A stretch of DNA of 64,000 bases from the IMG/VR virus record IMGVR_UViG_3300005613_000044, positions 1 through 64,000 of that record; one strand, written 5' to 3'. The position numbers and the translations under genes were made by a program. Positions within the stretch are counted from its first letter, which is position 1. Every line of letters begins with the position of its first letter. This DNA is from a virus. The notes below the pieces were generated by a model. The model made no database searches. It was not told the origin of the DNA and was given only the letters and a program-made list of their open reading frames with translations. Positions 2,302-58,109 of the stretch are shown here, in pieces.

Positions 2302-3840
2302 ATGCAAGAAGGTTGGAGTGAAAAATATAAAGATTCTATTGATTGTTCCAACCCAAAAGGTTTCAGTCAAAAGGCTCATTGCCAAGGTAAAAAGAAAGAA
2401 GAAGTAAAAGAAGACCTTCGTAAATGGTTTGGAACTGGAGGAAAAGGTGGAGTTGGTGGAGGTGGTTGGGATCGTTACAACACCAAAGGTGAGAGAATTG
2501 GTAAATGTGCTCGTGAGCCTGGTGAACCAAAACCAAAGTGTCTTTCAAAAGAAAAAGCAGCAAAGATGTCAAAAGATGAAATTGCTGCAGCAGTAAGACG
2601 AAAAAGAAAAAAAGATCCTGTAGCAGATCGTCCAGGTAAAGGAGGAAAACCCAAAATGGTCTCTAATAAAATTAACGAAGCAAAGAAACAACCAGATCAT
2701 GAACATTCCATGATTCGTTCTGAACTTGAAACGATTAGAAAGGCAGTCGATCGTCTCAAGTCAAAAATGAAAGGTGAAGGTAATGTTGAGGCATGGGTTC
2801 AATCTAAAATAACAAAGGCAGCAGATTATATTGACTCTGCTGCAGATTATATTGAAAGTGGTGAACATAATGTTCATGGGTCTATGGATGAATCAAAAAA
2901 AGATCCCTGTTGGGACACTCACAAACAAGTGGGTATAAAGAAAAAAGGTAAGAAAATGGTTCCCAATTGTGTTCCTAAAGAAGAAGTAAGTCCTATCGTT
3001 GCAAGAGTTCTTGATAGACATTTTGCTACTGAAGAACTTGAAAGGATTGAAGAAGAGAACAAACCAACCAATCCAAAACTCTGGTCAAGAGCAAAAGCAC
3101 TTGCAAAGCAGAAGTTTGATGTTTATCCTTCAGCATATGCTAATGGATGGGCATCTAAATGGTATAAGTCAAAAGGTGGTGGTTGGAAATCAACTAAGTC
3201 TGAGGAAGTAGAACAGACTCAAGAGACCATTGAAGAAGCTACGAGAATTCCATCTCAAAGTGGAAACGTTTATCTCACTACCTTTATCTGGAGAGGTAAA
3301 CATATGGCGATGAAACTCTTCTTCCCAGAAGTCAAGAGACCATCAAGAGATGAAGTTCAAGATGCACTCGATAAAGTTTATCCTGGTTGCACACTTCAAA
3401 GATTTTATCCTACAACATTCCAACCTACAGATGCAGTTCTGAATGTTGGTGTAAAGGAGGGAAGTGAGTTAAAGTATTGTCCAAAGTGTAAGAAGATTGA
3501 AACCAGATCTGATTGTGCATATGGCGGTTCTTACTGGGATGATAATGCAAAAGAAGTAAGCACTGATGAAAATGGTTCTATGGAAGTTTCTGAAGGTGCA
3601 GCCTGGACTCGTAAAGAAGGGCAAAATAAAGAAGGTGGTCTCAATGAAAAAGGACGTAAATCTTATGAAAAAGAAAATCCTGGTTCTGACTTAAAGGCAC
3701 CAAGTAAGAAAGTTGGAAATCCTAGAAGAGCATCATTCTGCGCAAGAATGAAAGGCATGAAGAAAAAACTTACTTCAAAGAAAACTGCTAACGATCCCGA
3801 TAGCAGAATCAATAAGTCCCTTAGAGCTTGGAATTGCTGA
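2302..3840 (+). CDS. Mosaic Cys-motif structural/internal protein (512 aa, DUF5872-like module)
   Basis: This protein is built from short modules. The N-terminal IDCSNPKGFSQKAHCQG is followed by a Gly-rich WDRYNTKGERIGKC segment. Then come KKDPCWDTHKQVG..VPNCVPKEE, a segment of LWSRAKALAKQKF / YANGWASKWYKSKGGGWK type (DUF5872-like), a segment similar to the next gene product (about residues 317-378), a CPKC...C zinc-like patch, and a C-terminal SFCARMKGM...DPDSRINKSLRAWNC. These modules recur separately in cyanophage proteins of unknown role. It lies behind a late-type octamer, so I infer a virion or prohead role; no enzymatic motif is seen. Confidence 0.75.
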   Translation: MQEGWSEKYKDSIDCSNPKGFSQKAHCQGKKKEEVKEDLRKWFGTGGKGGVGGGGWDRYNTKGERIGKCAREPGEPKPKCLSKEKAAKMSKDEIAAAVRRKRKKDPVADRPGKGGKPKMVSNKINEAKKQPDHEHSMIRSELETIRKAVDRLKSKMKGEGNVEAWVQSKITKAADYIDSAADYIESGEHNVHGSMDESKKDPCWDTHKQVGIKKKGKKMVPNCVPKEEVSPIVARVLDRHFATEELERIEEENKPTNPKLWSRAKALAKQKFDVYPSAYANGWASKWYKSKGGGWKSTKSEEVEQTQETIEEATRIPSQSGNVYLTTFIWRGKHMAMKLFFPEVKRPSRDEVQDALDKVYPGCTLQRFYPTTFQPTDAVLNVGVKEGSELKYCPKCKKIETRSDCAYGGSYWDDNAKEVSTDENGSMEVSEGAAWTRKEGQNKEGGLNEKGRKSYEKENPGSDLKAPSKKVGNPRRASFCARMKGMKKKLTSKKTANDPDSRINKSLRAWNC

Positions 3841-7979: not shown

Positions 7980-10184
7980 ATGGCAACTCCTCAATTATCT
8001 CCAGGCGTACTCGTCAGAGAGGTTGATTTAACAGTTGGTAGAGGCAATAATGTCCTCGATAACATTGGTGCTATTGCTGGTCCCTTCAGAATTGGTCCTG
8101 TCGATGATCCAATTCAAGTTTCCAATCAGCAAGAGTTAATCAATACTTTTGGTACTCCCCTTTCCACTGACAGACAGTATGAGTACTGGATGAGTGCTTC
8201 TTCCTTCCTTTCATATGGAGGGGTTCTTAAGGTTGTAAGAACTAACGACGACAATCTTACAAACGGCAATGCTGGTGTTGGAATTGCTTCAACTTCAACA
8301 CTCAACATTACAAATTATGATGATTACGAGGCTAACCACACTAACGATACTACTTTTTACTGGGCAGCTAGAAATCCTGGTTCTTGGTCAAACTCAATGA
8401 GAGTTTGTATTATTGATGACGCAGCTGACCAAATTATTGGTATTACAACAGATAGTCTTGCTAGTGTAGGTGCTGCTGTTGGTTATGGTGTTACTTCACC
8501 ACTTTCAAGTACTATTCTTCCTGGTGCTGGTACAACATCAACATTTGATGGGTATCTGAAAGGTATTATTACTGGTGTTAGTACTGACTCCACAAATAGT
8601 AATAGTACTATTAATGTTAAAATTCTTTCTAGAGTTTCAACAGCTGGTACAGAATATCCAATTACTTATAGTGAGAATGATACAAATTCCTCTTTTGAAG
8701 TTAGTGACTCACTGACATTCTTGGGGAACGATGGATCAAACGCTGGATCAGCTACTGTAGCTACTGAAAAAGATTGGTATAACGAACAAACTCTTGGTCT
8801 TACCAATTCAACTGTTTATTGGAAGTCAATCGCTCCTAGACCAATCTCCTCAAATTACTCCACTTCTAGAAGTGGTAGAGGTGATTCGATTCACGTTGTA
8901 GTTTATGACGACACTGGATCAATTACAGGTATTCAAGGTAACATCTTAGAGAAGCATTTGTTCCTTTCTAAGGCAGTTGATGCTGGAGCAAACGCAGATT
9001 CTCCAACGAAGATTTACTACAAGGACTTTATTTCAAGAAATTCAACACAAGTCTTCCCTGGATATAATCCATCGAATGCAGCTGATTCATATTGGAATAC
9101 TGAACCTCTTTCTGTTGGTTTCTCCACCAACTATGTTAAGTATACAACTGCTGAAGGTCTTTGGGGTCAAACAGCTCAAGATACTGTATTCAGTGCTATT
9201 GGTAATGTTTCCTATGTCTTTGATGGTGGTAAAGACTATTCTGGAAATGTTCCAGAAATTGGTGGAAATGGTGGAATGGAGGCAACTTTAGGTAATCTGA
9301 ATACTTCATATAGATTGTTCTCGAATAGAGATGAAGAAGCTGTTGATTACCTGATAATGGGTCCTGGACTTTCAAACGAGAGTGAATCACAAGCTAAGGC
9401 AAATCTTTTGATTTCTATAGCTGAAGGTAGAAAGGACTGTGTTGCTACAGTTGGTCCACACAGAGCTAACATCGTTAACGTTACAAATTCAACAACTCAA
9501 ACAACAAATCTTCTGAGATTCTTTAGTCCATTACAATCTTCTTCATACGCTGTATTTGATAGTGGATATAAGTATACTTACGATAGATTCAATAATGAGT
9601 TCCGTTATATTCCAACTAACGGTGACGTTGCTGGTCTGATGGTTAGAACTGGAATTCTGGCTTATCCTTGGTTCTCACCAGCTGGATTACAAAGAGGTGT
9701 TCTGAATAACGCTGTTAAACTGGCATACAATCCAGATAAGTCTCAAAGAGACCTTCTCTATCCAGCAAGAGTTAATTCCATTATTAACAGAAAAGGTTCT
9801 GGAGTAGTTCTCTTCGGAGATAAGACAGCTCTTGGATACTCTTCGGCATTTGACAGAATCAATGTTAGAAGATTGTTCTTGACTGTTGAACAGGCTCTCG
9901 AAGAGGCAGCTCAAACTCAACTCTTCGAACTGAACGATGAGAACACAAGAGCAAACTTTGTTAACATCGTTGAACCTTACCTCCGTGATGTTCAGGCTAA
10001 GAGAGGTCTTTATGACTTCTTAGTTGTTTGTGATACTTCAAACAATACTCCTGAGGTTATTGATAATAATGAATTTAGAGCTGATATTTACTTGAAACCA
10101 ACCAAGTCTATCAACTACATCACACTGACCTTCGTAGCAACCCGTACTGGTGTTGCATTCGAAGAAGTTGTTGGTACTGTTTGA
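7980..10184 (+). CDS. gp18: Tail sheath protein gp18
   Basis: Contractile tail sheath subunit, 734 aa (T4: 659). The N-terminus SPGVLVREVDLT and the C-terminal domain (RDLLYPARVNSIINRKGSGVVLFGDKTALG, split here by description; then RRLFLTVEQALEEAAQTQLFE and YDFLVVCDTSNNT) match the conserved inner sheath domain. The middle is the variable outer part. Position between gp17 and gp19 and the late octamer plus strong ribosome-binding site fit high late expression. Confidence 0.97.
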   Translation: MATPQLSPGVLVREVDLTVGRGNNVLDNIGAIAGPFRIGPVDDPIQVSNQQELINTFGTPLSTDRQYEYWMSASSFLSYGGVLKVVRTNDDNLTNGNAGVGIASTSTLNITNYDDYEANHTNDTTFYWAARNPGSWSNSMRVCIIDDAADQIIGITTDSLASVGAAVGYGVTSPLSSTILPGAGTTSTFDGYLKGIITGVSTDSTNSNSTINVKILSRVSTAGTEYPITYSENDTNSSFEVSDSLTFLGNDGSNAGSATVATEKDWYNEQTLGLTNSTVYWKSIAPRPISSNYSTSRSGRGDSIHVVVYDDTGSITGIQGNILEKHLFLSKAVDAGANADSPTKIYYKDFISRNSTQVFPGYNPSNAADSYWNTEPLSVGFSTNYVKYTTAEGLWGQTAQDTVFSAIGNVSYVFDGGKDYSGNVPEIGGNGGMEATLGNLNTSYRLFSNRDEEAVDYLIMGPGLSNESESQAKANLLISIAEGRKDCVATVGPHRANIVNVTNSTTQTTNLLRFFSPLQSSSYAVFDSGYKYTYDRFNNEFRYIPTNGDVAGLMVRTGILAYPWFSPAGLQRGVLNNAVKLAYNPDKSQRDLLYPARVNSIINRKGSGVVLFGDKTALGYSSAFDRINVRRLFLTVEQALEEAAQTQLFELNDENTRANFVNIVEPYLRDVQAKRGLYDFLVVCDTSNNTPEVIDNNEFRADIYLKPTKSINYITLTFVATRTGVAFEEVVGTV

Positions 10185-53025: not shown

Positions 53026-53649
53026 ATGAATTACGTGTTTACTAAGTTTCTACCACTTGCTTTGGTATCTATTATTCCTGCTGCTTGTGCTTATCCAAGT
53101 ATCAGTGAGATCAAAAACCCACCTGAAGTTGATGTAACTGTCAACATGGAGAAGACAGTTCCTATTGAGGTGGTAGAATATAAGGAACCAACATGGAAGT
53201 GTCCTGATTGCACACCAAATGAAAAGTATGTCCTTGCACAACTCCAAGAACACACCAAGATCTCCGATCGTAATGCTCTCGCAACGATTATGGGTAACAT
53301 TAAACAAGAGAGCAAATTCATTTCCAACATATGCGAGGGAGGGGCTAGAGTTCCTTACAACTCTTGCCATCGTGGGGGTTATGGTCTTATTCAATGGACC
53401 ACAGTAGGACGTTATAATGGTCTTGGTAAGTTTTGTTCTAAATATGGTTGTGATCCAAGCAGTTTAGAAGGTCAAACTCGCTGGATGATTAACGAACCTA
53501 TCTTCCAGAAGTATCTTCCTATGTTTGAAGGACCTGGACAAACAGTTAGACAATATATGGTCCCAGCATACTACTGGTTGGGGTGGGGTATCAAAGGCAA
53601 CAGAGAAGTCTACGCTTGGGACTACACTAAAAGAATCATCCTAGCTTGA
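53026..53649 (+). CDS. Exported lysozyme-like protein (207 aa)
   Basis: The N-terminus MNYVFTKFLPLALVSIIPAA has a basic residue then a hydrophobic core, with a signal-peptidase-I-type A-C-A cut near residues 24-26 (a lipobox is imperfect because Pro is at -3). From residue 72 on, ISDRNALATIMGNIKQESKF then GGYGLIQWTTVGRYNGL is the phage tail-lysozyme (Phage_lysozyme2) core; Glu in KQES is the probable catalytic acid. A secreted or membrane-tethered cell-wall hydrolase for lysis is most likely; a virion role is possible. Start chosen at the ATG; an upstream in-frame start at 53014 is also possible. Confidence 0.75.
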   Translation: MNYVFTKFLPLALVSIIPAACAYPSISEIKNPPEVDVTVNMEKTVPIEVVEYKEPTWKCPDCTPNEKYVLAQLQEHTKISDRNALATIMGNIKQESKFISNICEGGARVPYNSCHRGGYGLIQWTTVGRYNGLGKFCSKYGCDPSSLEGQTRWMINEPIFQKYLPMFEGPGQTVRQYMVPAYYWLGWGIKGNREVYAWDYTKRIILA

Positions 53650-53674
53650 CGAAGATGTCCACATATCTTATAAT
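53646..53674 (+). promoter_or_regulatory. Sigma70 promoter with palindrome, tRNA cluster
   Basis: TTGACG (53646-53651), 17 bases, TATAAT (53669-53674). The -10 box lies within the inverted repeat CCACATAT-N6-ATATGTGG (53659-53680), a possible operator. Would transcribe the tRNA-Arg and following genes. Confidence 0.75.
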
Positions 53675-53688
53675 ATGTGGGTATTCAA

Positions 53689-53762
53689 GACTCAGTAGCT
53701 CAGTGGAATAGAGCATCGCTCTTCTAAAGCGTTGGTCGTAGGTTCGAATCCTACCTGAGTCG
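53689..53762 (+). tRNA. tRNA-Arg (TCT)
   Basis: Full cloverleaf: acceptor GACTCAG/CTGAGTC, D arm GCTC/GAGC, anticodon loop CTTCTAA (TCT), T arm GTAGG-TTCGAAT-CCTAC. Reads AGA, a codon frequent in this phage. Confidence 0.95.
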
Positions 53763-53890
53763 TTACGGATTGGCGACATCCGTGCTCACATCTCCGAGAG
53801 AAAAAGAATCGGAACACCAACCCATGTGAGAGAGAGGTGGGATCCCTCTTGAGCCCGTCAGTGTTATTCTGCAGGATAATATTGACGTAT
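53763..53890 (+). ncRNA. Candidate structured non-coding RNA between tRNAs
   Basis: No ORF. Four successive hairpins: ACGGAT/ATCCGT (53765-53783); CTCACAT/ATGTGAG (53785-53830) enclosing TCCGA/TCGGA; AGAGG/CCTCT (53833-53849); and CGTCAGTGTTAT/ATAATATTGACG (53856-53887), a 12-bp stem with two G-U pairs and an 8-base loop. Far too much complementarity for a spacer. It is not a tRNA. It recalls T4 stable RNAs C and D only in position (within a tRNA cluster). Confidence 0.65.
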
Positions 53891-53897
53891 TCTTATT

Positions 53898-53968
53898 GCC
53901 TCTAAAGCATTGTGGTGATGCAGCTGTTTTGTAAGCAGCAGAGGTTGGTTCAATTCCGACTAGAGGCT
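53898..53968 (+). tRNA. tRNA-Thr (TGT)
   Basis: Acceptor GCCTCTA/TAGAGGC, anticodon loop TTTGTAA (TGT), T arm GTTGG-TTCAATT-CCGAC. Reads ACA. Confidence 0.93.
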
Positions 53969-53972
53969 CCTT

Positions 53973-56863: not shown

Positions 56864-56980
56864 ATGACCCTATTAATAGTTTCTTGTTTCAATAAAACAA
56901 GTGGTGCGGATGGAGATAACACTCCCGCTCAGTTTCTTACTTCTGGTCAAAGAGTAAGTGGCGTGCATGAAAAAACCTAA
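56864..56980 (+). CDS. Possible very small protein (38 aa), lipoprotein-like start
   Basis: MTLLIVSCFNKTSGADGDNT with a hydrophobic MTLLIVSC start resembling a minimal lipobox. GGTGGAG lies seven bases upstream. The frame is open further upstream without an ATG, so a longer product starting at a TTG (56741) is also possible. Ends seven bases before a strong terminator. Region 56770-56863 otherwise shows nothing definite. Confidence 0.35.
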   Translation: MTLLIVSCFNKTSGADGDNTPAQFLTSGQRVSGVHEKT

Positions 56981-57050: not shown

Positions 57051-58109
57051 ATGTCTGATTATAAAAAGACAGCACTTGTACTTGGTGCTGGTGGTTTTAT
57101 TGGAAGTCACATGGTGAAGAGACTTCGATCTGAAGGATATTGGGTGAGGGGTGTTGATCTTAAGCGTCCTGAGTTTTCTGAAACTGAAGCAAACGAATTC
57201 ATTCAGGGTGATCTACGTGACGTAGATTTCGTGTCTCGTTGTCTTGAATATAAAGGTGAAAGAGGAAATTTCTATAATTCAGTTCCTTATCTTTATATTC
57301 AACCATTTAATGAAATTTATCAGTTTGCTGCTGATATGGGTGGTGCTGGATTTGTATTCACTGGTGAAAATGATGCAGATATTATGCACAACTCTGTTTC
57401 TATCAACCTCAATGTTCTTGAACAACAACGTATTTTTAATGATAGATATGGAGTGAATAGAACTAAGATCTTCTATTCTGGTTCTGCGTGTATGTATCCA
57501 GAACATAATCAACTCGATCCTGATAATCCAGACTGTCGTGAAGGATCAGCATACCCTGCAAATCCAGATTCTGAATATGGATGGGAAAAACTCTTCAGTG
57601 AGAGACTCTATCTTGCATACAATCGCAATCATGGTATCCCTGTTCGTATTGCTAGGTATCACAACATTTTTGGGCCTGAGGGAACTTGGGAAGGGGGAAG
57701 AGAGAAAGCACCTGCAGCAATTTGCAGAAAGATAGCTTCTGTTCCTGATGTTGGTGGTGCAATTGAGGTTTGGGGAGATGGTGAACAGACTAGATCGTTC
57801 CTTTATATTGACGAATGTATTGAAGCTACTAGAAGATTGATGGATTCCGACTTCATGGGACCTGTGAATATTGGTTCTGAGGAAATGGTATCTATTAATG
57901 AATTAGTTCGTGTTATCTCTAAGGTTTCTGGTAAAATAATTCAGAGAAGGCATAGACTTGATGCACCTCTTGGTGTTCGTGGACGTAATTCCAATAATGA
58001 CTTAATTCGTGAGAAACTTAACTGGGATTATGAGATGACACTTGAAGAAGGAATTGCTAAAACTTATGAATGGATTAATGAACAGTTAAGAATTAAAATG
58101 AAACTATGA
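57051..58109 (+). CDS. GDP-mannose 3,5-epimerase-like NAD-dependent epimerase (352 aa)
   Basis: Extended SDR: GAGGFIGSH NAD-binding at residues 13-21, catalytic SGSACMYPE near 143, and Y-G-W-E-K (YxxxK) near 178. The segment GTWEGGREKAPAAICRK near residue 210 is diagnostic of plant-type GDP-mannose 3,5-epimerase, which makes GDP-L-galactose/GDP-L-gulose. First gene of the coupled operon, behind its own promoter. Confidence 0.85.
   Translation: MSDYKKTALVLGAGGFIGSHMVKRLRSEGYWVRGVDLKRPEFSETEANEFIQGDLRDVDFVSRCLEYKGERGNFYNSVPYLYIQPFNEIYQFAADMGGAGFVFTGENDADIMHNSVSINLNVLEQQRIFNDRYGVNRTKIFYSGSACMYPEHNQLDPDNPDCREGSAYPANPDSEYGWEKLFSERLYLAYNRNHGIPVRIARYHNIFGPEGTWEGGREKAPAAICRKIASVPDVGGAIEVWGDGEQTRSFLYIDECIEATRRLMDSDFMGPVNIGSEEMVSINELVRVISKVSGKIIQRRHRLDAPLGVRGRNSNNDLIREKLNWDYEMTLEEGIAKTYEWINEQLRIKMKL

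Follow-up and report, generated by a model that had tools for sequence, protein, structure and literature searches.

Locus and predicted fold

The window, the whole 64,000-nucleotide stretch of DNA analyzed here, comes from a virus record of 73 kb, and the annotated records closest to it are those of Synechococcus T4-like myoviruses. According to ARAGORN, a tRNA-Arg ends at 53762 and a tRNA-Thr starts at 53898, which leaves a 135-nt gap (53763-53897) with no plausible ORF. A preliminary description made from the sequence had proposed that four hairpins occupy this space, and we could confirm the fold as described. We refer to the predicted RNA as type A, and the features of the locus are as follows.

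53646..53674 (+): sigma-70-type promoter, TTGACG-17-TATAAT, upstream of tRNA-Arg; consensus match at 11/12 positions
53689..53762 (+): tRNA-Arg(TCT), directly 5' of the type A RNA, with no encoded CCA before that RNA
53763..53897 (+): type A RNA, the predicted mature RNA between both tRNA ends
53765..53783 (+): helix P1 (ACGGA/UCCGU) with loop UUGGCGACA; double-sided changes at 3/5 pairs
53785..53830 (+): helix P2 (CUCACAU/AUGUGAG), closing an internal loop with conserved CAACCC
53793..53813 (+): inner hairpin P2b (UCCGA/UCGGA) with a conserved A-rich loop; UCCAG/CUGGA in some relatives
53833..53849 (+): helix P3 (AGAGG/CCUCU) with conserved loop UGGGAUC; 100% paired, double-sided changes at 4/5 pairs
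53856..53887 (+): 3' hairpin P4, 14 bp, then UAUUCUUAUU; the hairpin is kept across relatives, its sequence is not
53898..53970 (+): tRNA-Thr(TGT), directly 3' of the type A RNA

P4 forms 14 pairs, including three G-U pairs; the 12-bp stem with two G-U wobbles given in the preliminary description is the same helix with the inner two pairs omitted. The folding energy of the whole element (z = -2.7 to -3.1) lies below that of nearly all shuffled sequences, with P4 as the main cause: P4 alone reaches z = -6.2, whereas the core alone is unremarkable (z = -1.4). The folding energy is moderately unusual, and because the excess comes mostly from P4, it is insufficient alone as proof of structure. Together with its U-rich tail (UAUUCUUAUU), P4 scored as terminator-like, but 4/14 pairs are GC; two such sites were found compared to 0.5 in shuffled sequence. 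The promoter at 53646-53674 would transcribe tRNA-Arg and the type A RNA jointly. Co-transcription with the tRNAs had been suggested, and this predicted promoter before tRNA-Arg agrees with it, although it is a consensus match of which about as many occur in shuffled sequence (2 sites found versus 1.6 expected).

Covariation and conservation

In an alignment of 83 distinct type A sequences (A1), 98.2% of cells in the proposed 22 pairs are standard pairs compared to 93.3% in shuffled alignments, and double-sided changes number 97 compared to 21.5. When the pairing is slid by 1 to 3 columns, only 22 to 55% of cells remain paired. P2 is 99.8% paired, with double-sided changes at 3/7 pairs. Because the sequences of A1 were mostly chosen by a pattern that fixes P2b, the invariance of P2b in this alignment is partly a selection effect; among sequences collected with a second, P2b-independent pattern, UCCGA/UCGGA is replaced by UCCAG/CUGGA, which amounts to two compensated pairs.

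A structure-blind scan of all column pairs among 114 sequences ranked pairs of P3, P1, P2, and P2b highest. The P3 pairs 53836:53846 and 53835:53847 were top-ranked, the P1 pairs 53769:53779 and 53766:53782 were among the top covarying pairs, and covariation was also detected for the P2 pair 53790:53825 and the P2b pairs 53796:53810 and 53797:53809; the scan ranked some nonpairing neighbors as well, as expected from common ancestry. P4 sequences fall into several unrelated classes, and the stem is formed in nearly all relatives. Of 105 distinct type A tails, 88 contain a perfect stem with 7 or more bp, versus 13% of shuffled tails, and most tails lacking one have a single mismatch. The loops are as strictly conserved as the stems, and the element is 86 to 97% identical between phage records and the window, compared to mostly 76 to 79% for the best-matching flanking regions.

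The strong covariation and an identity above that of flanking genes imply selection on the type A RNA product. Judged from these alignments, the type A fold is proven by covariation, and the element is a genuine RNA gene under base-pairing selection. The selection on RNA structure that had been proposed for this locus is borne out by covariation in every core helix and by P4-like stems in nearly all relatives, and the covariance comparison that the preliminary description had named as its check was passed decisively, with compensatory changes found in homologous loci.

Distribution among phages

Using a sensitive DNA search, we found type A in 17 phage records representing 11 distinct Synechococcus myoviruses (approximately 80 to 118 nt matched), present as a single copy per record and without annotation in all phage regions examined. 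Cultured carriers include Bellamy, S-CAM3, S-SCSM1, and S-H34. S-CREM2, which was reported with two tRNAs and wcaG (PMC10665884), carries the element as well. Well over 100 IMG/VR contigs carry type A: the P2b pattern matched at least 119 viral-contig stretches and the second pattern matched 96, and 163 instances were collected in total. We encountered no account of the element in the literature that we searched.

A broken copy, located after tRNA-Arg in L095 (6223-6318, +) and in L158, is missing P4 entirely as well as the 3' side of P3.

The P2b pattern matched six times in 84,980 prokaryote genomes; four of these matches had a chance-level score with the type A model and one (L213) had none. 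The sole match scoring with the model, L212 (NZAX01000079.1), lies on a contig labeled Flavobacteriaceae. By eye, the ORFs of this contig are phage-like and include a PhoH-like ATPase and a prolyl hydroxylase-like protein; the Flavobacteriaceae MAG sequence is probably a misbinned cyanophage contig. On this pattern search, we rejected a host-derived origin of type A, although diverged copies may exist in hosts.

Genomic context and predicted RNA ends

We examined the context of 130 distinct type A loci with enough upstream sequence. The start of the element adjoins a tRNA 3' end in 105 of these, typically at a distance of ≤2 nt, and in 21 others it is preceded by TATAAT at 5 to 9 nt (mostly 7 to 8), with TTGAC further upstream in 18 of the 21. 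The remaining four loci are unassigned, although three of them visibly end in tRNA sequence upstream. In sigma-70 promoters, the spacing of TATAAT sets the transcription start, which by this geometry is predicted to fall at the base of P1. Transcription initiation and tRNA 3' processing, which are unrelated routes, would give one predicted 5' end.

Downstream, a tRNA begins 98 to 176 nt from the type A start in 112 of the 120 loci having one, and no tRNA follows closely in 10 of 107 loci. The element follows 0 to 3 contiguous tRNAs and precedes 0 to 4, ranks anywhere from first to fourth in the array, and is last in some arrays; six tRNA species are found upstream and eight downstream. Because its tRNA neighbors differ between loci and some copies open or close the array, type A looks autonomous. 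Its context looks like that expected of an independent RNA gene within a tRNA array and is hard to square with a leader of one tRNA. What stands of the preliminary description is a structured RNA under pairing selection within a tRNA transcript, but its suggestion of a tRNA-processing leader has lost support, given the 0 to 3 preceding tRNAs, the many different neighbors, and the loci without a close downstream tRNA.

A second RNA in the same slot

Two contigs, L001 and L002, match the window in two flanking segments at approximately 96% and 92% identity but do not contain type A. Instead, they carry tRNA-Asn and a second RNA, which we call type B, where the window has type A. Type B is unannotated and present in 32 phage records, including S-TIM5, S-SM2, Syn1, S-RIM44, S-CAM9, and S-T4, and a type B pattern matched 69 viral-contig stretches. 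The RNA is approximately 145 to 180 nt and sometimes longer, and its helices covary. It adjoins tRNAs, whose place is taken by a TATAAT promoter in L268 and L269. Hypothetical proteins are annotated across type B in S-TIM5 (L217:764-1048), S-SM2 (L222:731-937), and Syn1 (L223:741-923), and these are probably spurious gene calls.

Type B resembles type A in occupying the same slot between tRNAs and in the order of its parts, namely P1, a P2 stem with CAACCC or CAGCCC, and P3 with a loop of the GGUGG-AUCC type. It differs in being longer and in having a conserved 3' domain in place of the simple P4. In two separate unfiltered searches, the best match of the type A model in type B loci fell exactly at B and in register, and the type B model, applied to type A loci, likewise matched best exactly at A, in register. 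Since these cross-matches are weak (E of about 0.05 to 0.4), shared descent of types A and B is probable but short of proof. A third 5' half (GACGGGGGAUGAGUCCGCCC...) is joined to the same 3' domain in L225 (732-873) and also in L236, L248, L252, L270, and L271; on this comparison, type B RNAs are modular, with an exchanged 5' half on the same 3' domain.

We found no overlap between the type B records and the 17 type A records among the matches listed. In the contigs, which are partial, type A was found in 0 of 81 type B loci and type B in no type A locus. These observations are suggestive of mutual exclusion, although the record counts alone are not strong. In the genus Kanaloavirus, the position flanked by tRNA-Asn and tRNA-Val is occupied by A in S-8S53 and by B in the sister phages S-8S55 and S-CAM9.

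Comparison with known RNA families

In the window, no Rfam 15 family matched type A at the gathering threshold, and none fell inside the element at E values up to 10; a scan of L055 returned chance eukaryotic lncRNA matches only. Type B matched no Rfam family at the gathering threshold or at E values up to 10. On these results, a known ribozyme, riboswitch, or sRNA was rejected as the identity of either RNA.

A parallel without sequence similarity to the stable RNAs of T4 had been drawn earlier, and it holds in both respects. The T4 RNAs rnaC and rnaD (species 1 and 2 stable RNAs) are, like type A, small structured RNAs in the tRNA cluster of a T4-type phage, and rnaD lies 1 nt after tRNA-Arg, just as type A directly follows tRNA-Arg in the window. 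However, they share no sequence similarity with type A and have a different predicted fold, and the type A model gave only chance-level matches in the T4 region. ROOL and GOLLD are structured phage or prophage RNAs of unknown function often found near tRNA islands (PMC12286853). They are similar to type A in being structured phage RNAs near tRNAs but are several hundred nucleotides long with elaborate folds, whereas type A has approximately 125 nt and four simple hairpins, and their Rfam models did not match it. The wcaG RNA (RF01761) is another structured cyanophage RNA and is also present in the window, but it has another sequence and fold and is classed in Rfam as cis-regulatory. With covariation in P1, P2/P2b, and P3, conserved loops, and a position adjoining a tRNA or a promoter, type A constitutes a new RNA family within a loosely known category, the unexplained structured RNAs of phage tRNA clusters.

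Proposed role and alternative explanations

The comparative evidence shows that type A is a gene for a small structured noncoding RNA, which cyanobacterial T4-like phages carry in their tRNA arrays as a cassette. We consider it reasonably probable that its product is a stable RNA that acts in trans during infection. This RNA would be made as part of the tRNA transcript or from a separate promoter. At the base of P1, either 3' processing of the preceding tRNA or the start of transcription would generate the 5' end. The 3' end would come from RNase P cutting at the 5' end of the tRNA that follows, or it would lie at the P4 hairpin. The predicted mature RNA of approximately 125 nt, folded as P1, P2/P2b, P3, and P4, may bind a host or phage protein or the ribosome in trans through the conserved loops GAGAAAAAAGAA, CAACCC, and GUGGGAUC. 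It could thereby belong to a set of phage RNAs, along with tRNAs and sometimes a tmRNA, for the takeover of translation, and type B may fill its role in other phages.

Two specific activities were considered. A mimic of the Shine-Dalgarno complement (GAGGUG..AUCC in P3) was rejected because changes in the stem keep pairing but lose the match (GAAGUG, GGGAUG), and a CsrA-type decoy with a GGA loop is unsupported, as the P3 loops of type B do not all retain GGA (L253). As speculation, CAACCC and GUGGG might form a pseudoknot; both sides are nearly invariant, and they change jointly in only two sequences (L096 and L131).

The main competitor of a trans-acting RNA is a cis-acting element of the tRNA precursor that aids processing, stability, or antitermination in the manner of put or nut sites and has no function once excised. 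It would account for the fact that type A is nearly always found within or next to a tRNA array and in most loci is immediately followed by a tRNA, and that in 21 loci a promoter-driven transcript would begin with it, and the terminator-like P4 and U-rich tail make attenuation of downstream tRNAs a possible cis role. Such an element is difficult to reconcile with anywhere from 0 to 3 tRNAs before type A and any of eight tRNA species after it, with the 10 of 107 loci that have no close downstream tRNA, and with a single copy per phage record whose loops are conserved as strictly as its stems, and we think it unlikely, though a serious contender. We give a poorer chance still to a mobile or selfish RNA cassette that spreads among tRNA genes through recombination and brings the phage no benefit. 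Type A does occur at varied genome positions beside varied tRNAs, A and B are swapped at one locus, and cyanophage tRNA genes coincide with nonsyntenic regions (PMC3037559). However, we noticed no protein gene, end repeats, or target duplication at type A, the element is again single copy, and its strong covariation and a level of identity exceeding that of flanking genes imply that the RNA product is under selection. A decayed tRNA, an intron remnant, or chance hairpins in a spacer could be read into four hairpins within 135 nt and a core folding energy that is not exceptional, but covariation across 83 to 114 sequences contradicts this, as do conservation above the flanking genes and the absence of a tRNA or intron match in Rfam, which makes such an origin extremely improbable.

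Beyond the trans-acting role of type A itself, we tentatively propose a broader scheme, which we hold to be possible rather than likely. Types A and B may be interchangeable modular members of one unrecognized RNA superfamily of marine T4-like phages, with a shared 5' architecture and exchangeable 3' modules, which would be matured by tRNA-processing enzymes and act in trans to redirect the host translation or RNA decay machinery as a functional counterpart of T4 rnaC/rnaD.

For cyanomyovirus genomes, tRNAscan and Rfam have long been the annotation tools, and the papers describing carriers list known RNAs only. A conserved and possibly abundant RNA has been overlooked, along with a second RNA that replaces it. 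The question of what stable RNAs do in phage tRNA clusters is now testable through natural A/B swaps, predicted ends, and cultured carriers, and two covariance models, one each for A and B, would allow a common class of marine viral RNAs to be annotated.

Other RNAs near the arrays

The wcaG RNA of the window (88.4 bits) lies at 56875-56972 (+), shortly upstream of an ORF (57051-58109) that is nucleotide-sugar epimerase-like. In L006, a wcaG RNA (8658-8756, +) is located between tRNA-Thr and tRNA-Leu and not before a wcaG-like gene, a placement that would be unexpected if its role were purely cis-regulatory. The cyanophage contig L060 encodes, in the tRNA array that also contains type A, a permuted cyanobacterial-type tmRNA (RF01851, 169.9 bits) at 3316-3603 (minus strand), and four loci share a gap of this kind.
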